Assembly (NCBI RefSeq): GCF_900113575.1
Contig: NZ_FOPV01000014.1
Location: 1-64,000 of the forward strand
Length of the DNA: 64,000 nucleotides
From: Nitrosospira sp. Nsp14
Lineage (GTDB): Bacteria > Pseudomonadota > Gammaproteobacteria > Burkholderiales > Nitrosomonadaceae
Direction: 5' to 3'
The notes beneath the pieces are model-generated. The model had not been told where the DNA came from. It did no database searches and saw only the letters and a program-made list of their open reading frames with translations. Positions 12,628-22,879 of this stretch are shown here, in pieces. Numbering within the stretch: the first letter of the stretch is position 1; every line of letters starts with the position of its first letter. Made by a program: the position numbers and the translations under genes.

Positions 12628-13392
12628 ATGGCCAACTTTTCGATGCAATTAGGTGAAAAACGGGTAAACTCAAGTGGTTCAGTTAGAACAAACCTAACGA
12701 AATTGCCAGTGCATATACTTATTATCGAAGACGATCCCGCGATCGCCACCAACCTCTACGATTTTCTCGAAGCACGCGGTCACAGTGTCGACGCTGCGGC
12801 GGATGGCATCACAGGTCTGCATCTTGCGGTAACGCAGAAATTCGATGGAATTCTGCTTGATCTCGGGCTGCCCGGCATGGATGGCATTACATTGTGCAGG
12901 AAACTTCGCAAGGAAGCCGATATCGATACGCCGGTACTGATGCTTACGGCGCGAGACACGCTGGACGATAAGCTTAAGGGGTTCGATTGCGGCGCCGACG
13001 ATTATCTGGTCAAGCCATTTGCGCTTAAGGAAGTTGAGGCGCGCCTGGTCGCGATGCATAAGCGTCACGGCGGCAAAGTCACGAGCCGCATGCTCGAAAC
13101 GGGTGATTTGTCTTTTGATCCAAAAACACTATCTATCCAGTTTGCCGGTGCAAGCGTCAAGCTGCCCCCCAAATGTATTCGGCTACTTGCCATTATGATG
13201 GGCGAACCGGGCCGGGTGTTCAGCCGCAGGGAATTGGAATCGGAAGTCTGGGGCGATGAGCAGGGCACGAGCGATACCTTGCGTAGCCATATGCACGAAC
13301 TTCGCCGCGCGCTGAGCCGGGCCGGAGGATATGATCCAATCGAGACAGTTCACGGCCTTGGTTATCGCCTGATTTCTCGTGCCAGGAGTTAA
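12628..13392 (+). CDS. OmpR-family response regulator
   Basis: DNA-binding regulator activated by the kinase encoded next to it. The receiver domain starts at about residue 28 (VHILIIEDDPAIA), with phosphoacceptor D78 in ILLDLGLPGMDG and the conserved K129 in YLVKPF. A winged-helix output domain follows from about residue 155 to the end (TLRSHMHELRRAL, VHGLGYRL). The first 27 residues are not part of the fold, so the true start may be the GTG at 12709, which opens exactly at the receiver; neither start has a good ribosome site. The gene overlaps the kinase gene by 14 bp. The regulon is unknown. Confidence 0.9.
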   Translation: MANFSMQLGEKRVNSSGSVRTNLTKLPVHILIIEDDPAIATNLYDFLEARGHSVDAAADGITGLHLAVTQKFDGILLDLGLPGMDGITLCRKLRKEADIDTPVLMLTARDTLDDKLKGFDCGADDYLVKPFALKEVEARLVAMHKRHGGKVTSRMLETGDLSFDPKTLSIQFAGASVKLPPKCIRLLAIMMGEPGRVFSRRELESEVWGDEQGTSDTLRSHMHELRRALSRAGGYDPIETVHGLGYRLISRARS

Positions 13393-14647
13393 GCGCGGTT
13401 TACGCCTGCGTGTTGCACTGGCATTTGCAATATTCTGCATTGTTGTCGTTGGAACCGTTGGTATCAGCCTCTACATCGCCTCGGATGATATTGAACAGGC
13501 GCATATCGAGCAGATTCTCGAAGCCGAGATGGATTATCTCGTGCAGCGCTATAGCGAGAGCAGCGATTTTGTTCCGCAGGTAGGTTCCAATCTCGAGAAA
13601 TATATCGTCCGCGATGCTGCGGATGAATCGCATCTGCCAACATACCTCCAAGGATTGAATTACAGGCGCCATAAAGTGTTTCGTGGCCCGGAAGAAATCC
13701 GGGTCGCGGTACGGCACGCCAATGGCGTCAAGTTTCTCGTTGCATATGAGATTGGACTTCACGATCTGCGGCAGCAGGAACTCCGGCTCCTTATCGTTTT
13801 ATCGCTCTTGTCGGTTGTTGGGGTAGCCTTGGTGGTTGGATATTTACTCGCCGGCGTGCTCGTCAGACAGGTCACTGATCTAGCCGAGCGGGTGCGGCAT
13901 CTTGCGCCGGGCGACGTGCAAGGCGCCACAATGATACAGCCAGGGCAGGACGAGGAGGTCGCGCAGCTTGCGCATGCGTTGGACGACTACCAGAACCGCA
14001 TTACGCGTATGTTGCGGCGCGAGCAGGAATTTACCGCCAACGTCAGCCATGAGTTGCGTACGCCAATCACCACCATTTTGACAAGCTGTGAGCTTCTGGC
14101 GACGGAGCCAAGCCTGCCAGAGCGGGCACGCGGAAGAATCGGGATGATCGAGAGTGCGGCCACCCGTATGGGTGAGCAATTACAGGCCTTGCTATTCCTC
14201 GCCCGTGAGCAGGCGCTAGGGATCATGGAGCCGGTCGCACTTGCGGAATGCGTTTACGACGCGGTGGAACCGGTATGTACGGAGATATATCGCAAGCGGC
14301 TTAATTTCGAGGTCGCAATCGAGCCAAAGGCGGTTCTTACGCTAAATCCACAGGCACTGCATACGGCTCTCGTGAATCTGCTCCGAAATGCGGTGCAGTA
14401 TACCGAGCGCGGTTTCATTCGCGTCAGTTTTAACCGGAACCGTCTTTCGATCTCGGATTCGGGTATTGGCATCGAGCCGTTTTACCTGCCACTTCTCTAT
14501 GAGCGTTTCTTCCGCGGAACATCTCAAGGCGAGGGTTTAGGCATAGGGCTTGCTATCGTCAAACGGATTTGCGATCACTACGGCTGGACCATTGATGTCG
14601 ATAGTACCCCTGGAAAAGGTACCACGTTTCACATCACATTTCCTTGA
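13379..14647 (+). CDS. Membrane sensor histidine kinase
   Basis: Partner of the preceding response regulator. Two transmembrane segments (about 11-33 and 137-161) bracket a periplasmic sensor of roughly 100 residues. Then follow a HAMP-like linker, the H-box FTANVSHELRTP with H224, the N-box LVNLLRNAVQYT, and the ATP-binding ISDSGIGI and GLGIGLAIVKR motifs. The start is a GTG inside the end of the regulator gene. The sensor sequence does not identify a ligand. Length 422 is typical. Confidence 0.92.
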   Translation: MPGVKRGLRLRVALAFAIFCIVVVGTVGISLYIASDDIEQAHIEQILEAEMDYLVQRYSESSDFVPQVGSNLEKYIVRDAADESHLPTYLQGLNYRRHKVFRGPEEIRVAVRHANGVKFLVAYEIGLHDLRQQELRLLIVLSLLSVVGVALVVGYLLAGVLVRQVTDLAERVRHLAPGDVQGATMIQPGQDEEVAQLAHALDDYQNRITRMLRREQEFTANVSHELRTPITTILTSCELLATEPSLPERARGRIGMIESAATRMGEQLQALLFLAREQALGIMEPVALAECVYDAVEPVCTEIYRKRLNFEVAIEPKAVLTLNPQALHTALVNLLRNAVQYTERGFIRVSFNRNRLSISDSGIGIEPFYLPLLYERFFRGTSQGEGLGIGLAIVKRICDHYGWTIDVDSTPGKGTTFHITFP

Positions 14648-15400
14648 AGGCCAAACTGAGCGGCTGGACAGTGTGCTTCTTCTGTACGCAGCCTATCCAA
14701 ACTCACTTCCATAAAAAAATCTCCTGGCTCAACCTCTTCACGCTCTCAAAAATAGTGAGGCGATATCGTTCGCTGCTTGGTAGCTTGGTAGTAATGCCTG
14801 AGTGATGAACAGGCCTCACGCCGCGAACCCGTCCCCCGTTTCAAATCAGCCCTACCCCGGTCCCCTTGCGGTTTTGTTATACGATACGTAGGAAGGCCTG
14901 GTGATTGTGCTCTGTTGTCACCTTCACCTGTTGCCAAATTCCTAAGCCTCTCCGTCCACCCGCTCCTTTGGAGGCTGCTAAGCTGGCGGCCCGTTAGCGA
15001 CACCTTATCCGTTTAACTCCACAGCTGCGCCAGATCGTTCGCCTCCTTCCAAGCTCAACGACCGCCTGTAAGAACTTCTGAACAGGTAAGCGTCCATCGG
15101 GGCAACAGGGATGTCTTGTGATTATCGCCATTTTTCGGTAGGCGATGCCCTGGCGGGGCCTATCTTGAAATTCTTTCGTTATGGTGATTCGCTCTGAGCC
15201 GCGACGGTCGTTTTCATGTCGACCGTATCGACTTGGATATTCTTGAAAAGCGCGCCGCGCCATAAACCCGGGAGCGATGCTAGTAATCCTCGCAGGGTGG
15301 GAAATAAATATTGCTCACTAAGATACTTTACTCAAATGAAATAGCGCTGGCTTGTTTTCAGGAAGAATTAAGACTTTTTTAAAATATTTTTATTTAGTTG
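14648..15400. other. Non-coding stretch with possible gene debris
   Basis: About 750 bp with no supported gene. Two minus-strand frames (14746-15003 and 14994-15263) are open, are arginine-rich and resemble no family I recognise; neither has a ribosome site. The region looks like decayed or intergenic sequence between the two-component operon and the carbon-uptake island. A remnant of a mobile element is possible but no terminal repeats or transposase motifs were found. Confidence 0.35.
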
Positions 15401-15406
15401 GCCCGA

Positions 15407-15445
15407 TTCACAAATTAATCACAGATACGAAATCTTTTCTTCACA
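15407..15445. promoter_or_regulatory. TTCACA box pair upstream of sbtA
   Basis: TTCACA occurs at 15407-15412 and again at 15440-15445 (within CTTCACA, 15439-15445), exactly 33 bp apart. The same hexamer appears in phased groups before the SulP gene and after the UspA gene, with 11, 22 and 33 bp steps. It lies some 610 bp before sbtA. The assignment as a regulator site is inference from the repeated spacing. Confidence 0.4.
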
Positions 15446-15451
15446 CCCACT

Positions 15452-15534
15452 GTGTTAATTTTTTATTAACACGCAATTCGAATCCCTTATAACACGCTTG
15501 TTTAATAATTATTAAAAATGATTAATATTAATCA
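15452..15534. repeat. Three perfect AT-rich palindromes
   Basis: Within 83 bp lie GTGTTAAT-5-ATTAACAC (15452-15472), the 16-bp TTTAATAATTATTAAA (15501-15516) and the 16-bp TGATTAATATTAATCA (15519-15534); all are perfect. The block is far more AT-rich than its surroundings. It lies about 520 bp before sbtA and directly after a TTCACA pair. LysR-type or other operator function, or an AT-rich bending segment, is possible; no protein can be named. Confidence 0.55.
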
Positions 15535-16054
15535 ACGCATTACAGAAATCTGTTTCTCAGTAGGCACCCGAGGGGGATTTAATTGAAAGCTAATTACTCG
15601 CGTAACCCCCGGCATGTGGAAGGAAGCGTGCTCGCGTTAAACTAATCAAAAATATGACGGCTGTGAATAGGGGTGGGTTTGTGGCGAAAGGCGTGGACTT
15701 AATTTGGATTCGGATAATTGTCCCCGTCTCAAAGAAAAATATGACCATGGATTATACAGGAATTAGAAGCTAATGAATGCGATCGCTTTTGGGGGTTGTT
15801 CTCCCGAAACGGCCAGAGTTGGAGCCAGAGCGATTGGCCCTCCAGTCCCTCGCGCTGAGCCAATGGAGCGAATTGAGACGCGTCCGCCGCGATAGAAATG
15901 ACATGGCGTGCGCCAGGTAGATAAACGCTTTCTGGGGGGTAAAAAATGAATCAACAACTGAGGAGTATAAGGTTACACAGCAGGGACTGCAACACAACAG
16001 ATCTAACGTGCACGTCGTTAGGACAACTAATAATCACAATAGGAGGATGACGCA
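15535..16054. other. Long leader before sbtA without a gene
   Basis: About 520 bp with no supported gene. A 40-codon frame at 15773 has a poor ribosome site and no recognisable product. The end of the stretch holds the good ribosome site AGGAGG of sbtA. Promoter elements could not be located with confidence, so this may be a long 5' leader or plain spacer. Confidence 0.35.
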
Positions 16055-17008
16055 ATGTCCACCATACAACCTGTAGTGCTGTTCTTCGTTCTGGGGGTTT
16101 TGGCCGGAGTGATGAAATCCGACCTCAAGATCCCCGAGGCTTTATACAAGAGCCTGAGCATCTTCCTGTTGATTGCCATCGGCTTCAAGGGAGGGGTATC
16201 GATGGCCAAGTACGAAATCATGGAGGTGCTGCCCATCGCCCTGTCGATGGTTGTACTCGCGGCGCTGGTGCCACTGACAGCCTATCCGATATTGAGGAAG
16301 CTCGGAAAATTCAGTCAGGCCGATGCTGGCGCTATTTCCGCCCACTATGGTTCGGTGAGCGCGGTGACCTTTGCGGTAGGTATCGCCTTCCTGGAGGGGG
16401 TCAAGGAGACGTCCGAAGGCTACATGGTCCTCATCATGGCGCTGATGGAGATACCGGCGTTGGTAACCGGCACCGTTTTGGCGCGGGCTGGAGCAAAGGG
16501 TACGACCCAGTGGGGGAAGCTATTGCACGAGATCCTGACCGGCACCAGTATTTTCCTGATGGTGGGTGGGGTCATCGTCGGTTACTACGCCGGGATGGTA
16601 AAACTTGTATCGCCGCTGGATAAGATGTTCATGGACCTGTTCATGGGTGTGCTCGCGTTGTTCCTGCTGGAAATGGGCTTGCTCGCGTCAGCGCGGTTGC
16701 AGGTAATCAAGGCAAAAGGCCCGTTCCTGATCGGGTTTGGCATACTGTTTCCATTGACAGCCGGGGCTTTTGGCGCCTTTCTCGGCGCGGCATTCGGTTT
16801 ATCCCTGGGCGGTGCCATGATGCTGGCCGTGCTGTACGCCAGTTGCTCTTACATCGCGGCCCCCGCGGCCATGCGCATCGCGGTACCCGAAGCCGACCCG
16901 GCGGTGTCGATCGGTGCCTCCCTGGGGATTACCTTCCCGTTTAACATCTTCGTCGGAGTGCCCATTTACTATGAGATGGCGAAGTTCTTTAAAGGCATGG
17001 TGGCATAA
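16055..17008 (+). CDS. sbtA: SbtA-type sodium-dependent bicarbonate transporter
   Basis: Inner-membrane permease expected to import HCO3- with Na+. The 317-residue protein is almost wholly hydrophobic, with about ten segments in two inverted halves. It carries family hallmarks such as GFKGGVSM, SAHYGSVSAVTF and YIAAPAAMRIAVPEADP, the conserved half-site motifs of SbtA (DUF897). It is shorter than the ~370-residue cyanobacterial protein. AATAGGAGG sits 8 bp before the ATG. The PII-like SbtB gene follows 144 bp downstream, the arrangement known from cyanobacteria and from several chemoautotrophs, supporting a role in supplying inorganic carbon. Confidence 0.93.
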   Translation: MSTIQPVVLFFVLGVLAGVMKSDLKIPEALYKSLSIFLLIAIGFKGGVSMAKYEIMEVLPIALSMVVLAALVPLTAYPILRKLGKFSQADAGAISAHYGSVSAVTFAVGIAFLEGVKETSEGYMVLIMALMEIPALVTGTVLARAGAKGTTQWGKLLHEILTGTSIFLMVGGVIVGYYAGMVKLVSPLDKMFMDLFMGVLALFLLEMGLLASARLQVIKAKGPFLIGFGILFPLTAGAFGAFLGAAFGLSLGGAMMLAVLYASCSYIAAPAAMRIAVPEADPAVSIGASLGITFPFNIFVGVPIYYEMAKFFKGMVA

Positions 17009-17152
17009 GGTTGCAGGAGAGGATAGACGTACTATCACCGGAGGGGTGGCGTTAAATAGCAAAGATCTTTTCCGAGGTGGCAGTACGTTTAATGAAGTCA
17101 CATCAATAGCAAGTGCCGTTATCCGACAGTCTTCACTTTCTAGGGGGAAATC

Positions 17153-17470
17153 ATGGATTCCGCAATCGCAATGAAGAGAATAGAAATCGTAATCGATGAG
17201 GAAAAACTCAAAGAACTGATTGGCATATTGAATGATTTAGGCGTACGGGGATACACGTTCATAAAGTCCGCTGGCGGCCTGGGGTCAAGGGGTACAAGGC
17301 GTCCTGACGACATCTTCTTCGAGCAAAACAATGCCATGCTGATTCTTGCTTGCCAGGAGTCTCAGGCACAGAAGGTGGCCACCGCACTTCGGCCCAAGCT
17401 GAAGGAGTTCGGCGGAATGTGTCTGGTTTCGGACTGCTACTGGATCGAGGGACCGCCAGTTTCGTATTAA
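17153..17470 (+). CDS. sbtB: PII-like regulator of SbtA (SbtB family)
   Basis: Trimeric PII-like signalling protein that in cyanobacteria binds adenyl nucleotides and gates SbtA. The 105-residue protein has the PII fold order: MKRIEIVIDEEKLKELIGIL (beta1-alpha1), VRGYTFIKSAGG, and a T-loop with GLGSRGTRRPDD. A C-terminal tail carries two cysteines (CLVSDC) where cyanobacterial SbtB has its redox-sensitive R-loop. GGGGGA lies 5 bp before the ATG. Position right after sbtA supports the pairing; nucleotide specificity is not visible. Confidence 0.9.
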   Translation: MDSAIAMKRIEIVIDEEKLKELIGILNDLGVRGYTFIKSAGGLGSRGTRRPDDIFFEQNNAMLILACQESQAQKVATALRPKLKEFGGMCLVSDCYWIEGPPVSY

Positions 17471-18062
17471 ACATCGATTCTATTTCCATGGGGACATTCC
17501 TTGGGTTGTGGCTGGTTCATTATAAACGCCCTGGAGCATACAGAATTTCACGGGTTCCAGCTTGTTTGCAGTCATGAGGGTTGATCACCGGTCACTTATC
17601 CAAGGAGTGGGCAATGTTACAACCCCATTTGTTTCACGATTCATTTTCGGCAGTGAGTTGCTGTTGATTTGTCATCGACACCGGCCGTACCTGCGGGCGC
17701 GAGCTAAGCGTGGTTTTCATCCAACCTCGCTTAGGGTCAGGCACCTGTCTCAGGCAAGCTGAAGCAAAAATTCTTTCGACGTAGAGAGAATGAAGCCTTG
17801 CCGAAGGTACGCTCGGACATTTAACGACATTTTTATGAATCGGTGCTCCTGAGTCCGGTATCAGGTGCTCTGAATAGATTTGACGGACGGGTATGACGAC
17901 AATTGAGGTCAGCAGTCCGTTAACTTGGTCGGGCGTCCCATTCAGTCAAGTCGTTGACCTGAGTATGGGAGAAGGGGGCTCACTAAAAGACGGAAGAGAT
18001 AGAGCCAGACGGGGGAGTTTAACGTTCAGTACGTATGTCTCATTAACCTAATTGAGAGCGCC
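17471..18062. other. 592-bp intergenic region after sbtB
   Basis: No supported gene. A 17-codon frame at 17614 has an excellent ribosome site (AAGGAGTGGGCA) but is too short to call. No hairpin followed by a T-run was found for the sbtAB transcript. Confidence 0.35.
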
Positions 18063-18563
18063 ATGGCAAGACCTGCGACGGGACGGGAGTTTGTGGAAAC
18101 CGCAAAGGCAAGAATCGCATCGGCCAAAACCGTAGATGCATTGCGTGCCGCCCAGGCATTACTGCTTCCGCTGGAGTTTGGGCTCTCGCTCGAGCAAACA
18201 GCGATCGTGATTGGATTATCCAAGAGCCGGACGGGAAAACTGAGGACTCGATTTCAGCGAATTGAATGCGGCGTTGAGCAGGTTAAAACCAAGAAAGGAT
18301 TACGTAACCATGCACGGATGAGCCTGGATGAAGAGGTAAAATTTCTTGCTCCCTTCATTGCGCAGGGTCACGATACAGGTGTGTTGCCGGTTCCTCAACT
18401 AAAAGCCGAGCTTGAGCGACGTATTGGAAGAAAAGTTTCAACGTCAACCGTTTATCAGTTACTGCGCCGCCATGGGTGGTCGAAGTTCGCACAGCAGCAT
18501 CGCGCGGAGCAAAAGGGGGTAAAATCGAGCAGTCCCGCGAGGCAAAAAAAGGATGACAACTGA
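18063..18563 (+). CDS. Isolated IS630-type winged helix-turn-helix protein
   Basis: A 166-residue basic protein made of the DNA-binding part of IS630-family transposases and nothing else. It shows a first helix-turn-helix near residues 58-80 (LSLEQTAIVIGLSKSRTGKL) and a winged helix near residues 115-150 (LKAELERRIGRKVSTSTVYQLLRRHGW). The catalytic DDE half is missing: the frame ends in a lysine-rich tail (PARQKKDDN), and no continuation was found in the next 250 bp. No terminal inverted repeats were found. It is either a truncated transposase or a stand-alone DNA-binding protein; intact codon structure and a full stop favour the second slightly. Confidence 0.7.
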   Translation: MARPATGREFVETAKARIASAKTVDALRAAQALLLPLEFGLSLEQTAIVIGLSKSRTGKLRTRFQRIECGVEQVKTKKGLRNHARMSLDEEVKFLAPFIAQGHDTGVLPVPQLKAELERRIGRKVSTSTVYQLLRRHGWSKFAQQHRAEQKGVKSSSPARQKKDDN

Positions 18564-18816
18564 TGGAGAGCGTCTTCGACGCTAATCGTTTATGAATACT
18601 CGCGCGGGGCAGGCGGTAAGGGAAAGGGTGGAAAGGGTGCTTTCGGAAAGTATTTCTGCTTTTCGACGCTGCTCGAACGAGCTGCGTTTTGTTTTTGTGT
18701 TATTCCCATCCAAGGATTTGCCGCCTCCTGGGTGAAACCATAGTTGCTATTTCCGCGGAGCGCCCTTGTTCGATGTAAGCCATCGCAGCGGGACGACGGC
18801 TTACATCAGATAGTAC
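18564..18816. other. Gap with an inverted repeat after the CA-like gene
   Basis: No gene. A perfect 10-bp inverted repeat, GATGTAAGCC at 18772 and GGCTTACATC ending at 18807, has a 16-bp loop and begins 9 bp after the stop of the minus-strand carbonic-anhydrase-like gene. It may end that transcript, although no T-run follows. Confidence 0.5.
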
Positions 18817-19158
18817 TCAATCTGCTTTGACTTCTTCCCAAGTGCCATCGAGCTTGATGTAAAACAGCTTAGGCTCAAACCCAAGTGAACGGGCTGTTTC
18901 TGCAGCCTTGAGCAGATCCTCCTTCTTGGCGCCGGCCCCGCAATCCTCATGCACGGAAAGCACCGCCGTGCTGCTATCATGCAGTTTTTTTGAAAGCCCC
19001 AAGTGTGTTTTAAGCTGGTCGGCATTTGCCGCGCCACCTGCGCACGTCACGCGGTCAAATGATCCTTGAGGAATATTCAGGTGCTCAAGCAAGTTGTCCA
19101 CCGTTTTTTGTATCCGAAAGTCCATACATCCGACAACAGCGTGGCTACAGGTATGCAT
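18817..19158 (-). CDS. Very small beta-carbonic-anhydrase-like protein
   Basis: Predicted zinc protein that would interconvert CO2 and bicarbonate. The 113 residues contain the complete beta-class set: C11-x-D13-x-R15 (CMDFR) and H70-x-x-C73 (HEDCGAG), i.e. all three zinc ligands plus the Asp-Arg dyad. A glycine-rich CAGGAANAD segment at 39-47 occupies the place of the usual RNAG block. Normal beta-carbonic anhydrases have about 170-230 residues, so helices outside the core are missing. GAAAGGAC precedes the ATG. It lies between sbtAB and a SulP permease, which supports a role in inorganic carbon supply. Activity is inferred; a CO2-sensing or other zinc role is possible. Confidence 0.75.
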   Translation of the reverse strand: MHTCSHAVVGCMDFRIQKTVDNLLEHLNIPQGSFDRVTCAGGAANADQLKTHLGLSKKLHDSSTAVLSVHEDCGAGAKKEDLLKAAETARSLGFEPKLFYIKLDGTWEEVKAD

Positions 19159-20063
19159 AAATTTGTCCTTTCTGGGTTATATGTCGTGTAAAGCCAATGT
19201 GATGATTCCATGATGATTGTGCCTCCCGCCGCCCCTACGCGTCAAGTAGAGTTTCAGACCGGCGGCGCCAGTGCGCAACAAGTACGAGTCGCGAATATCG
19301 CGCTTGAGTTGCTGTCACCGGATTATCGTGGTTGAAATGGCGCCGGGCGGGTAGAGACGACGTGGTCGATAAAAGCTTGTATTCGGGATCCACCGGTATT
19401 GCATCTTCAATTCGTGCTTGCCGTACTGTGATTTGGGTAAGAAGGGGCTCGTTTTGTTTCTCCCGTTCTAATCGGATCCCCGTCCGCCGCGGTACGCACC
19501 TCGCACTGCTACCCTTTATCTCCGATCTCCTCAACTCCGACAACAAGCGGTGGTGATGCAGCGGTTACTGCTGCGCCTTGCCTCTTCCATCTAACACAAA
19601 AACTTCACAAACGTCATTGTTATTTGAAAGAGGGTTTTTAAGCTAATCTCGAATAAACCTGCAATGTACAACATTATCCCTTGTATTTACGTGTAAATTA
19701 TTAAAGTGACTCGTGGCAGGATATTTCCGTTACAAAAATGTGTGAAGAACTAATGATTAGACTTCACAATTTCTTCACATTTCCTAAACATCGACTTCAC
19801 ATTCCCAGTGGTATGTTAGCGCCGTCTTTAAAGCTTGAAGAAGTTAGGGATATTTTCGTGTCACAAACCCATGACCAGATGGTGTCCTGAGCTGCGGCTG
19901 GGGTGCTGTCGACGGGGCCGTGGATAAGCTTTTAAAGGGACGTGAAGTGACTCTATATAGCGATTTTTCATCATCCAGCATGAGGAACCACAGCGGGAGT
20001 TCCACATTTTGTGCATGGGGAAAATTTTTTATATCAAATTTTTAACAAGGAAGGACAAGCGAC
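19159..20063. other. 905-bp non-coding region before the SulP gene
   Basis: No supported gene. Frames on both strands around 19235-19556 are open but unlike any family and lack ribosome sites. From about 19600 the sequence is AT-rich and carries five CTTCACA/TGTGAAG boxes. The last 20 bp contain AAGGAAGGA, the ribosome site of the SulP gene. Their number and spacing suggest that most of this stretch is control DNA. Confidence 0.5.
19603..19801. promoter_or_regulatory. Phased CTTCACA/TGTGAAG box array before the SulP gene
   Basis: CTTCACA is found at 19603-19609, 19762-19768, 19773-19779 and 19795-19801, and its complement TGTGAAG at 19741-19747. The last three direct copies are 11 and 22 bp apart, on one face of the helix. 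The 19741 and 19762 copies form an inverted repeat with a 14-bp spacer. Tandem heptamers at 11-bp steps are typical of sites for OmpR/PhoB-type regulators. The half-site spacing does not fit CRP. The regulator is unknown. Confidence 0.6.
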
Positions 20064-21413
20064 ATGAGTTCATTAACTTCAGATAAGCCTATTTCACCCC
20101 CCGATGACCATGCACCGAGCAGTACACCGGAGCCGGTAGTTGCTCCTGGATCGGCGGGTTTTCAAGCCAAATACGTAGCCCGGGACATCCAGGCCGGAAT
20201 TATATGCGGAGCGATGGCGATACCGCTCAGCACAGGTATTGCGATGATGTCGGAATACCCGATCAAGGTGGCGCTGGCCACGGTGGTGTTCGCGTGTTTT
20301 ATCGGGTGGATCAACTCGTTCTTCAAGCCGGGTAACTACATTGGGGTGCCGGGCGTTGCCGCAGGTCTTGCGCCCGCTCTGGCCTTGGGCGTTCAGTCGT
20401 TCGGCGTTGAAAATATGGCGTTCTGTATTTTCCTTACCGCGGCCATACAGGCCGTGGTTTGGAAGTACAACTGGCAACGGTACATAATCCTTGCGGTGCC
20501 GGTATACCTGGTGGAAGGGCTGCTCGCCGGGATAGGGTTGAAAATCGCGCTTAAGTTCGTGACCTTTACTTATGAGCTCCCCGCTGGCGCGGAAGATGCT
20601 GACGCGTTCTGGAACGGCGCCCGGATACAGATAGTCCTTCTATCCTTGGTTGGGTTCGCCGGTTTTGTATATCTGTTCTCCAAGTTCAAGGATACAAAGC
20701 CAGCTGTGCCTTACTTCCTTTTAATAGCGGCAAGCGTAGTAGTTGCTCAGTTCGTGGCGGTTCCCATGCTGCATGTGGATGATGTGGATCTCCAGCTGGC
20801 CCTCCCAATACCCCATGTCGAAAACGCGATGATGTGGGTCTATATGATCGGGTTCTGCTTCATGCTTGCAACGATAGATGTGATTGAACAGGTAATGAGC
20901 AACGCTGCGATCGAAAAAATCGATCCCCTGGGTCGCAAGTGCAATACCAACAATAGCTTGTTCGCTATCTGGATCGCCAATATGGGTTCCAGTTTCTTTG
21001 GCGGCATGACAAACCTCGACGGCTTGGCCAAGAGCACCACCAACAAGCTGGCAGGGGCATATACAAAGTTTTCAAACCTCGTCGTAGGCTCGGTTATTGC
21101 CTTCTTCGTCTTGAATACTCATTACCTCGAGTTTCTGCCGAAGTTTTCGTTGGCGGCTATTATGATTTTCTCCGGCTGGAAGATGATCATGGGATTGTGG
21201 CATGTCGCGCACTACGGCCAATATGCATTGATACTCGCGACCGTTACCGGTTTACTGGTGTTTAAAATAGGTATCTTCGAGGGAATGATCGTTGCTCTCG
21301 CGGTGCATGGCCTCATTAATTACATTGTCTTCAAGCAGGCCGGCAAGATCCCTGGGAAGGTTATTGTCAAAAAGTATTTTGAGAAATTTTCCACGGGTGG
21401 GGGCGCTGATTAA
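20064..21413 (+). CDS. SulP-family anion permease lacking a STAS domain
   Basis: Inner-membrane anion transporter, here probably for bicarbonate. The 449-residue protein starts with a proline-rich cytosolic tail (1-38), then ARDIQAGIICGAMAIPLSTGIAM, the SulP transmembrane-1 region, and about 12-14 hydrophobic segments. The conserved block NMGSSFFGGMTNLDGLAKST with the following NKLAGAYTKFSNL marks the family. It ends at the membrane domain, without the STAS domain found in BicA and most SulP proteins, and is about 100 residues shorter. A UspA gene follows. Substrate is inferred from the sbtAB and carbonic-anhydrase-like neighbours; sulfate or another anion cannot be excluded. Confidence 0.8.
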   Translation: MSSLTSDKPISPPDDHAPSSTPEPVVAPGSAGFQAKYVARDIQAGIICGAMAIPLSTGIAMMSEYPIKVALATVVFACFIGWINSFFKPGNYIGVPGVAAGLAPALALGVQSFGVENMAFCIFLTAAIQAVVWKYNWQRYIILAVPVYLVEGLLAGIGLKIALKFVTFTYELPAGAEDADAFWNGARIQIVLLSLVGFAGFVYLFSKFKDTKPAVPYFLLIAASVVVAQFVAVPMLHVDDVDLQLALPIPHVENAMMWVYMIGFCFMLATIDVIEQVMSNAAIEKIDPLGRKCNTNNSLFAIWIANMGSSFFGGMTNLDGLAKSTTNKLAGAYTKFSNLVVGSVIAFFVLNTHYLEFLPKFSLAAIMIFSGWKMIMGLWHVAHYGQYALILATVTGLLVFKIGIFEGMIVALAVHGLINYIVFKQAGKIPGKVIVKKYFEKFSTGGGAD

Positions 21414-21435
21414 AGTTTGGCGATAGACTCAAACC

Positions 21436-21468
21436 GGCGGGCGCCTTTACGCGCGCCCGCCATTTTTC
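21436..21468 (+). terminator. Intrinsic terminator after the SulP gene
   Basis: A 9-bp perfect stem, GGCGGGCGC (21436-21444) and GCGCCCGCC (21453-21461), is followed by ATTTTTC. It lies 23 bp after the SulP stop and 33 bp before the UspA start, so the two genes are probably transcribed separately or with partial read-through. Confidence 0.85.
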
Positions 21469-21500
21469 ATTGAATCACCACTCTAATACGGGAGTTCGCA

Positions 21501-21923
21501 ATGTATAAGAAGGTCATGGCGGCTATCGCCGACGATGAGATTTCCTGGAATGCTCTGCAAGAAGCTATCCATATCGCCAGCGCAGATGGGGCCAAACTTT
21601 GCATCGTCCATGCGGTGGCAACAGCTAACGACGACGAGGAAAACCGCCGCAACAGGCAAGCCGGAACGGATTTGCTGGAGCGGGCCGGGGCCAGGGCTGC
21701 CGGAAAACTGGACGTCGAAAGCCGGTTGCTGGAAGCGGAGGGGGAATATGGTCTAAAGGGTATTTCAGAAGCAATCGCGCATGCTGCGGAAGAGTGGGGC
21801 GCTGACTTGCTGGTTGTTGGAACTAAAGGTCGCCGAGGCCTGGAGCGTTTGGTGATCGGATCTGTGGCCGAGCAGCTCGTCAGTACCGTAGCCGCCTCGG
21901 TTTTGCTTTCGCGTTTACGCTGA
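21501..21923 (+). CDS. Universal stress protein, UspA family
   Basis: Small cytosolic nucleotide-binding protein of the Usp fold. The 140-residue protein begins YKKVMAAIADDEISWNALQEAI and ends with the ATP-binding pattern VVGTKGRRGLERLVIGSVAEQL (G-2x-G-9x-G-S type), followed by ASVLLSRL. Such proteins often sit beside or within SulP and other transporter genes and may regulate them. Here it follows the SulP gene, separated by a terminator. Role is inferred only. Confidence 0.9.
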   Translation: MYKKVMAAIADDEISWNALQEAIHIASADGAKLCIVHAVATANDDEENRRNRQAGTDLLERAGARAAGKLDVESRLLEAEGEYGLKGISEAIAHAAEEWGADLLVVGTKGRRGLERLVIGSVAEQLVSTVAASVLLSRLR

Positions 21924-21959
21924 CCTAACCGTTTAGTCGCAAAAATTTTTTGCCCCAAA

Positions 21960-22040
21960 TGTGAAGAATATGTGTACAAAGCATGAAAAACTTGTGAAAT
22001 TGTGAAAAATGTGTATAATCTATGTTAAGGAATTGTGAAG
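21960..22040 (+). promoter_or_regulatory. Promoter with phased TGTGAA boxes before the two-helix protein
   Basis: TGTGAAG (21960), TGTGAAA (21993), TGTGAAA (22001) and TGTGAAG (22034) are arranged as two pairs, each exactly 33 bp apart. A good sigma70 promoter is embedded: TTGTGA at 21992-21997, a 16-bp spacer and TATAAT at 22014-22019. Boxes cover the -35 and also lie just past the predicted start near 22026. The same motif precedes the SulP gene. Control by a common regulator is inferred. Confidence 0.6.
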
Positions 22041-22047
22041 TACCTCT

Positions 22048-22074
22048 CACCCTACTCACAGGGTGGTTTTTTTT
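22048..22074 (+). terminator. Intrinsic terminator, possibly an attenuator
   Basis: CACCCT (22048-22053) and AGGGTG (22060-22065) form a 6-bp stem with a 6-base loop, followed by G and eight T residues. It lies downstream of the TATAAT promoter at 22014 and 24 bp before the next gene's start. It could end the UspA transcript, or act as an attenuator in the leader of the following gene. Confidence 0.75.
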
Positions 22075-22097
22075 AAACGAACGTTTGGAGATCTACC

Positions 22098-22310
22098 GTG
22101 AAAACTATTTTCGCATTGGTCTTGCCGCTTAGTCTCGCTTTACTCTGGGCTGTGCCCATTTTTACGTCGGGCGAATTCAGTCTAGGTTGGGGTTGGTTCG
22201 TTGTCGATTTCCTGGTCGTCGCGGCAACATACCTTATGCTTGCTTACCCTGGCTTGTTTAAAGCAATAGCTCGTCGGCACAAATCCTTTTCTAGCCGCGC
22301 TTTGGCGTAA
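22098..22310 (+). CDS. Small two-helix inner-membrane protein
   Basis: A 70-residue protein with two hydrophobic helices (about 3-22 and 31-52) joined by a short loop with GEFSLGWGW, and a basic C-terminal tail (FKAIARRHKSFSSRALA) that should face the cytosol. It starts at GTG with TTTGGAG upstream. I do not recognise the family. It lies behind a promoter loaded with the TGTGAA boxes seen at the SulP gene, so a link to that transporter is possible. A terminator closes the gene. Confidence 0.75.
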   Translation: MKTIFALVLPLSLALLWAVPIFTSGEFSLGWGWFVVDFLVVAATYLMLAYPGLFKAIARRHKSFSSRALA

Positions 22311-22318
22311 TAGAGATT

Positions 22319-22352
22319 CGGGCGGAACGAATGATTCTGCTCCGCCCGTTTT
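22319..22352 (+). terminator. Intrinsic terminator after the two-helix protein gene
   Basis: An 8-bp perfect stem, CGGGCGGA and TCCGCCCG, with a 14-base loop is followed by TTTTC. It begins 9 bp after the stop codon. Confidence 0.85.
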
Positions 22353-22453
22353 CGAATTAGCTTGAATTGGTTTTTTGTGGTGTTAAGTAGCTCCCGAATA
22401 AAGAGTTTTGTTCAGGGTTCTCCGCTGTTCTGTTCGTGTATTGTGAAATCCAA

Positions 22454-22879
22454 ATGAGAAATATCGTCATTCAAGTACTTCTGTCTATTAGCGTGCTACT
22501 TGCCAGTTCTTCTGTTTTTGCGCAGCAAGGGACCAGCAAGGCGCCGCGAGACGCAGATATCTCCTGCATTCAAAACATAATCGACGAACGCGACACGTCG
22601 CTGGCGAATATGACCACTGGCTGGTCGTCGTCCGTTAAAGGAGCACTTGAAGCACGGCGGGACGCGGAAAAGGCCAGTTGGAATATTTCTGACTACAAGG
22701 AACGGCGTGTCGCGCAAAGAAAGGCATGGAGCGACTATGACAAGATTCTTCGCACTGCGAACAAGGCAAAAACCAAAGAACGCGTTCAGGCATGGAAAAA
22801 GTTTGATAACGACCGGCAACAATGTGAGGTTTATTCCCCTGAGATGGTCGCAGGTAGCACACACGATAAAAATCTCTAA
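22454..22879 (+). CDS. Secreted hypothetical protein
   Basis: A 141-residue protein with a clear signal peptide: MRNIVIQVLL, a hydrophobic core and SSVFAQQ, with likely cleavage after VFA. The mature part is charged and helical (EARRDAEKASW, ERRVAQRKAW, RVQAWKKFDND) with two cysteines that could form one disulfide. An in-frame GTG at 22436 would spoil the signal peptide, so the ATG is preferred. A single TGTGAAA box lies 6 bp upstream of the ATG. I do not recognise a family; a periplasmic location is inferred. Confidence 0.75.
   Translation: MRNIVIQVLLSISVLLASSSVFAQQGTSKAPRDADISCIQNIIDERDTSLANMTTGWSSSVKGALEARRDAEKASWNISDYKERRVAQRKAWSDYDKILRTANKAKTKERVQAWKKFDNDRQQCEVYSPEMVAGSTHDKNL

Follow-up and report, generated by a model that had tools for sequence, protein, structure and literature searches.

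Direct repeats of 11 bp upstream of the -10 element are found at promoters controlled by PhoB of proteobacteria and PhoP of Bacillus in response to a phosphate signal, and bicarbonate transporters or RuBisCO of autotrophs are under the LysR-type control of CcmR/CmpR and CbbR. Here we describe a ladder of TTCACA boxes preceding carbon-uptake genes in Nitrosospira sp. Nsp14 (a stretch of 64,000 nt, contig NZ_FOPV01000014.1, positions 1 to 64,000, hereafter the window), together with the neighbouring genes for an OmpR-family response regulator and a membrane histidine kinase. The repeat of Bacillus PhoP, TT(A/T/C)ACA, is similar to TTCACA, unlike the pho box (CTGTCAT), and CcmR/CmpR and CbbR differ from the box system in both protein family and site. 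ColRS of Pseudomonas putida likewise consists of an OmpR-family regulator and a membrane kinase (PMC2689224, PMC4074579); it switches on the operon that follows its own genes, together with some further targets, and represses others, and its signal is excess zinc, Fe3+, manganese or cadmium, zinc and Fe3+ being sensed through an ExxE motif close to the second transmembrane helix (TM2). RaxRH and VgrRS of Xanthomonas, in which a regulator is paired with a kinase that has a periplasmic sensor part, are broadly of this type; RaxRH adjoins lpxE, eptA or arnT and is linked to the remodelling of lipid A, and VgrS senses iron with no tie to carbon uptake (PMC8306577). Comparative analysis of the Nitrosospira locus suggests that in ammonia-oxidizing bacteria the boxes most likely mark a switch common to genes for the uptake of bicarbonate and CO2.

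In the window, the regulator gene (12628..13392, + strand; Pfam Response_reg PF00072 and Trans_reg_C PF00486), whose conserved part begins near 12706, is followed by that of the cognate kinase (13379..14647, +; HisKA and HATPase_c), with a predicted periplasmic part of ~100 amino acids (aa). A first ladder (15407..15445, +; boxes at 15407, 15418 (ATCACA), 15429 (degenerate) and 15440) precedes sbtA (16055..17008, +; PF05982, 3.8e-110), which encodes a Na+-dependent bicarbonate transporter. A second (19763..19801, +; boxes at 19763, 19774, 19785 (degenerate) and 19796) precedes a gene for a SulP-family transporter (20064..21413, +; PF00916), whose genomic context makes bicarbonate uptake its probable function. 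Each ladder is followed by a putative -10 element: TGTGTTAAT at 15451..15459 (+), belonging to a TRTGYTAAT-like element that most of the sbtA and dabA promoters compared have in this position, and the extended -10-like TGGTATGTT at 19809..19817 (+), where TATGTT begins 10 bp past the last sulP box. The TATGTTAGCG ending is retained in eight of nine sulP promoters compared (the exception being L161), and an inverted TGTGAAG box, at 19741..19746 (-) in the window, lies ~20 bp upstream of the ladder in six of the nine. TTCACA occurs on the + strand at 15407, 15440, 19604, 19763, 19774 and 19796 and on the - strand at 19741, 21960, 21993, 22001, 22034 and 22442. All copies named in the earlier note on this DNA exist, positions of the 19762 type starting at the preceding C and 19603 becoming 19604; a further - strand copy, at 15662, was absent from its list.

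The hexamer is not enriched as such, with 24 copies in the window against 27.5 expected from shuffles, 13 of them within 15407-22447; its signal therefore resides in position, not in number. Across the whole genome of Nsp14, 24 pairs of TTCACA lie at most 36 bp apart, against three for the reversed motif, and 13 of the 24 are spaced by 11 (six), 22 (three) or 33 bp (four) (binomial p = 6e-8, these being 3 of the 31 spacings). The exact arrangement TTCACA-N5-TTCACA is found six times and never for the reversed motif, and in 22 congeners 103 times against three, with at least one instance in 21 of the 22. When spacings of 6-18 bp are allowed in the genus, 11 bp accounts for 80 of 150 among the matches listed, the next commonest spacing accounting for 13. 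The gaps within ladders are partly occupied by weaker boxes (15418 ATCACA, 21971 TGTGTA, 21982 CATGAA, 22012 TGTATA, 22023 TGTTAA). The phasing at 11, 22 and 33 bp that the earlier note proposed is thus borne out, and more strongly than it was claimed.

The TTCACA boxes are a real conserved ladder. Forty loci were fetched by protein homology, ignoring the motif, and 34 of them (460,745 bp) were used after removal of six near-duplicates, although some of those compared are near-identical species pairs (G015/G022). Pairs matching at 11 or more of 12 positions number 55, 44 and 47 at 11, 22 and 33 bp; the remaining spacings between 6 and 60 bp (multiples of 11 excluded) average 4.1, with a maximum of 15. 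When promoters were counted by such a pair in the 1 kb preceding the start codon, boxes were found before 15 of 16 genus sbtA genes examined (21 genus sbtA matches exist), all 11 genus sulP genes examined and all three sbtA1 genes of genus g3, so that the motif is indeed conserved at the sbtA and sulP orthologues of the genus, as the earlier idea of a shared regulon implied. None of five g2 sbtA promoters passes the 11/12 cut because their box 1 is CTCACA or ATCACA; a ladder is visible by eye in all five. An alignment of 14 promoters (13 sbtA and one sulP), most of them found through boxes 1 and 2, gives commonest-base fractions of 0.98 (box 1), 0.99 (box 2), 0.69 (box 3) and 0.98 (box 4), while the spacers have 0.83 and the two flanks 0.50 and 0.47; box 4, which played no part in the choice of promoters, is TTCACA in 13 of the 14. 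Across genera, unrelated genes share one architecture, TTCACA-N5-(A/T)TCACA-N5-weak-N5-TTCACA, followed in most sbtA promoters by the TRTGYTAAT-like element, which in dabA promoters accompanies two boxes (TTCACGAATTCTTCACA).

The presence of the regulator correlates with that of the boxes across the family. An orthologue at least 73% identical is found in 30 of 37 family genomes, Nsp14 included; 29 genomes have both regulator and exact boxes, one the regulator only, one the boxes only and six neither (Fisher 2e-5), the six belonging to just two genera, so that fewer independent events are involved than this p value suggests. Kinase orthologues are 64-91% identical in Nitrosospira, Nitrosovibrio and Nitrosomonas records. 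Of 19 loci with both the pair and sbtA, 14 have the two no more than 1.5 kb apart, and the named neighbours found beside the pair in nitrifier loci are hemE plus sbtA, sulP or dabA. Of 15 Nitrosomonas loci found via the kinase, 12 contain sbtA or sulP, in each case with the ladder before it; in the remaining three, with neither gene in the locus, no ladder is seen over 330 bp past the kinase. In nine genomes that yielded no sbtA, dabA and dabB follow the regulator-kinase pair and the boxes (L142, L143, L146 and L149-L154; the family of one member is PF10070, DabA), and in G016 it is sulP that adjoins the pair. With an orthologue that tracks the boxes in this way, the earlier suggestion of an OmpR/PhoB-type regulator is strongly supported, the candidate being encoded at 12628-14647.

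More distant homologues carry the same type of site. In Massilia (kinase identity 35-37%), a ladder, mostly of TTCACG, lies just after the kinase in both loci; the Noviherbaspirillum locus has no ladder after the kinase, leaving two of three positive. A class-level set of 29 homologue loci was assembled from 274 genomes (homologues 45-55% identical), the kinase end being assigned in 28; TTCAC pairs (9/10 match) number 24, 18 and 22 at 11, 22 and 33 bp against 1-14 at other spacings, and a ladder near or just after the kinase end is found in 10 of the 28 loci against 0-2 at other spacings. Seven footprinted ColR sites of P. putida are tabulated in PMC2689224; the 11-bp TTCAC direct repeat, with the same spacing and core as here, is present in five of the seven, with at most one at any other spacing from 7 to 15. 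These lines of evidence (co-occurrence, linkage, distant homologues and ColR sites), largely independent of each other, point to one site type for one regulator branch. In two loci from one genus of another family (L343 and L349, in G140 and G265), a SulP-STAS gene ends just before the regulator homologue, which is a second SulP link outside the family.

The regulator apparently works like ColR, re-aimed at inorganic carbon. The likeness has its limits: ladders here reach at least four half-sites, unlike ColR sites, and carbon-uptake genes recur among their targets, whereas ColRS is known to act mostly on membrane and lipid genes. The sensors also differ, since ColS has the TM2-proximal ExxE, which none of the 26 nitrifier kinases has at that place; 24 of them have no ExxE anywhere in the periplasmic part, and the other two have one elsewhere. 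Filing the system as ColRS was accordingly rejected, the kinase failing the ExxE criterion for ColS given in PMC8306577 and PMC4074579 in all 26, and the system is called ColR-like here. In the periplasmic part, E39 and H98 are conserved in all 28 aligned kinases, and H42 and H128 in the 26 nitrifier kinases and not in the two from Massilia; one might guess that these residues have a role in sensing. A structure model of the kinase (mean predicted local distance difference test 73, predicted template modelling score 0.40), in which the periplasmic part forms a long helix and then a small beta sheet, is of moderate confidence and yielded no functional clue, no fold search having been made.

A third promoter is arranged in the opposite orientation to those of sbtA and sulP. 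A double inverted ladder (21960..22039, -; boxes at 21960/21971/21982/21993 and 22001/22012/22023/22034, i.e., ladders 21960-21998 and 22001-22039) precedes an open reading frame (ORF) for a 70-aa membrane-protein-like product (22098..22310, +), which has no match in a Pfam scan and whose homologues lie behind inverted boxes in other genomes. The second inverted ladder covers TATAAT at 22014..22019 (+), a putative -10 with a similar element at this position in other genomes, and the double pattern is kept in five of the genomes compared; in two others (L211 and L242), inverted boxes lie upstream and cover no clear -10. Because the ladder is inverted and covers the -10, the 70-aa gene may be repressed, i.e., controlled in the opposite sense to sbtA and sulP, an assignment of low certainty. 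The earlier note had suggested one regulator for the whole island: the ladders found are those at sbtA, sulP and the small membrane protein, control may or may not extend to other island genes such as those for the carbonic anhydrase and the stress protein, and the small-protein gene is probably governed in the opposite sense.

For a ladder whose existence, conservation, genomic linkage and co-occurrence with the regulator are directly observed, the best explanation, and in our judgement a probable one, is an OmpR-family regulator, most likely the product of 12628-13392, that would bind the ladder, activate carbon uptake and repress the 70-aa gene. The boxes would be half-sites of this one regulator, which the kinase (13379-14647) is expected to phosphorylate, and two head-to-tail dimers may occupy four half-sites set 11 bp, or one helical turn, apart. 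The last box ends about 8-10 bp before the putative -10 and no -35 is evident in these promoters, which leads us to propose that the regulator recruits RNA polymerase. It would switch on sbtA-sbtB, sulP, a second sbtA beside RuBisCO and, in relatives, dabAB, and would also activate porins and small secreted-looking proteins; at the 70-aa gene, where the inverted ladder lies over both -35 and -10, the same regulator would probably act as a repressor. The signal could report inorganic carbon, pH or a linked envelope state.

Several findings weigh against this explanation. The six genomes lacking both partners are phylogenetically clumped, as noted above; G018 (93% complete) has boxes with no regulator found, and G001 (80% complete) has the regulator with no exact box. 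The pair lies 11-13 kb from sbtA in four of the 19 loci and about 70 kb away in G024, and in the window the sbtA ladder is 648 bp upstream of the start codon. Neither of two g3 sbtA2 genes has a box pair within 1 kb, and a genus sbtA2 (L134) and the sbtA of G040 are without boxes. Three of the six exact pairs in the Nsp14 genome (on C16, C19 and C20) do not resemble regulon promoters, the one on C20 being some 115 bp ahead of a tRNA-Lys gene; nine exact pairs in all occur in six of 24 genomes from the rest of the order, these having no close regulator orthologue; 18 of the 28 class-level loci have no ladder in the short stretch examined; and many boxes of congeners precede genes without an assigned role, so that the regulon is broader than carbon uptake. 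If the absence of overall enrichment and the few phased pairs in odd places, such as near the tRNA gene, were taken to mean chance clusters of a common hexamer, this would be contradicted by the phasing, the reversed-motif controls and the conservation; with congener counts and the conservation of box 4 added to the phasing controls, chance was rejected, and we regard it as having practically no probability.

It is improbable that another OmpR-family regulator, for instance PhoB, binds the boxes and the neighbouring pair is a bystander, for the boxes track the 12628 orthologue across the family, the ladder follows the kinase gene in a good part of the distant homologues, and G027 and G030, which lack the orthologue and have 22 and 20 regulator candidates, contain no exact boxes. 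PhoB itself was considered and found less likely, the regulator scoring 169.8 bits with the NCBIfam PhoB model TIGR02154, below its cut-off of 296.2, and TTCACA differing from the pho box. More weight, though still well short of an even chance, is due to the view that the same regulator serves a ColR-like system for envelope, metal or pH stress, the carbon transporters being one branch of its targets: the sites are of the ColR type, boxes precede BBP2 porins, the DUF6733 family and secreted-looking proteins, and the Massilia ladders precede, by eye, an efflux operon and a sugar-nucleotide epimerase gene. On the other side, the conserved neighbours of the pair in the genus, in g2 and in Nitrosomonas belong to three unrelated carbon-uptake families (sbtA, sulP and dabA), a second ladder target lies by RuBisCO, and the nitrifier kinases lack the TM2-proximal ExxE of ColS.

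Inorganic carbon is thus the recurrent theme of the box targets and not the sole one, as the boxes before porin, DUF6733, secreted-looking and transketolase genes indicate. A porin-like gene and a second sbtA are among the genes with clusters at their promoters elsewhere in the Nsp14 genome, a point raised in the earlier note. The latter has its ladder 188 bp upstream and follows rbcL, rbcS and an AAA gene; a LysR gene stands at the far end of this RuBisCO cluster, apart from the box system. A porin family lies behind boxes in Nsp14 and four relatives (L174, L176, L206, L212 and L231; BBP2 in the two members scanned), as does a DUF6733 family in six loci (one member scanned); secreted-looking proteins of about 145 aa also occur behind boxes (the one scanned without a family match), and a transketolase does so once (L240). 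The densest ladder, ten box pairs in 11-bp step (L229:2629-2765, G009), precedes a protein of the DUF6733 cluster. For these comparisons 80 stretches around box sites were fetched, several sites of G015, G022, G032, G033 and G035 being left out, and the two-box scan credits half a point to G at the sixth place. A 41-bp matrix built from genus sbtA and sulP promoters was dropped as too narrow for Nitrosomonas, missing ladders that the two-box scan detects. Also dropped was a box 2 kb before sbtA in G037 (L162) as support from another family: its flank resembles a tRNA 3' end by eye, ARAGORN calls no tRNA at that flank, and the locus yielded no regulator or kinase homologue.

More tentatively, and with slightly less than even confidence, we suggest that ammonia oxidizers of the Nitrosomonadaceae possess a dedicated two-component switch for inorganic-carbon uptake, in which a ColR-type regulator is paired with a sensor without the TM2-proximal metal motif, H42, H98 and H128 could report pH or bicarbonate, and the ladder precedes whichever carbon pump the lineage has (SbtA, SulP or DabAB). 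In the searched literature, mostly without subscription papers, no paper was found that connects Nitrosomonas with sbtA, Nitrosospira with sbtA and a two-component system, or ammonia-oxidizing bacteria with ColR and a two-component system, and passages of PMC10880623 on carbon-uptake toolkits make no mention of two-component or LysR. A single conserved site and a candidate regulator tracking SbtA, SulP and DabAB would give a testable handle on the response of nitrifiers to carbon limitation; the site would allow additional genes for carbon uptake and porins to be predicted, and the system would provide an example of a regulator with a constant site and changing targets.

Among the remaining features, three TTCACA clusters of the Nsp14 genome (L002, L003 and L014, on C19, C20 and C33) have spacings of 9-12 bp; the L003 cluster adjoins the tRNA-Lys gene and the L002 cluster an ORF that by eye resembles an integrase, and all three look like mobile-element or attachment-site sequence and not regulon promoters. 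The sbtA leader (15480-16055, ~580 nt) is poorly conserved except for the promoter, the ribosome-binding region and the start of a short ORF. A known RNA in the island was considered and rejected, an Rfam scan of 15300-22500 giving none at gathering score. In several relatives the gap between promoter and sbtA is filled by a small ORF with a MTxIYLxD-like start, reduced in the window to 10 codons, and in G011 and G003 by a carbonic anhydrase gene. Downstream of sbtA, an SbtB-like PII protein (17153..17470, +; PF00543), which adjoins sbtA in relatives, is followed by a helix-turn-helix protein (18063-18563) with a weak likeness (31.6 bits against a cut-off of 100) to the N-terminal part of transposases of the IS630 type. 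In the genus this protein (74-87% identical) is encoded downstream of sbtA-sbtB at sbtA1 and at sbtA2 loci alike, and it may be a fragment of a transposase domesticated to serve the sbt operon. Finally, a putative carbonic anhydrase (Pro_CA_2) of 113 aa is encoded at 18817-19158 within the island, and G011 has two Pro_CA_2 copies, one of them between the box and sbtA.

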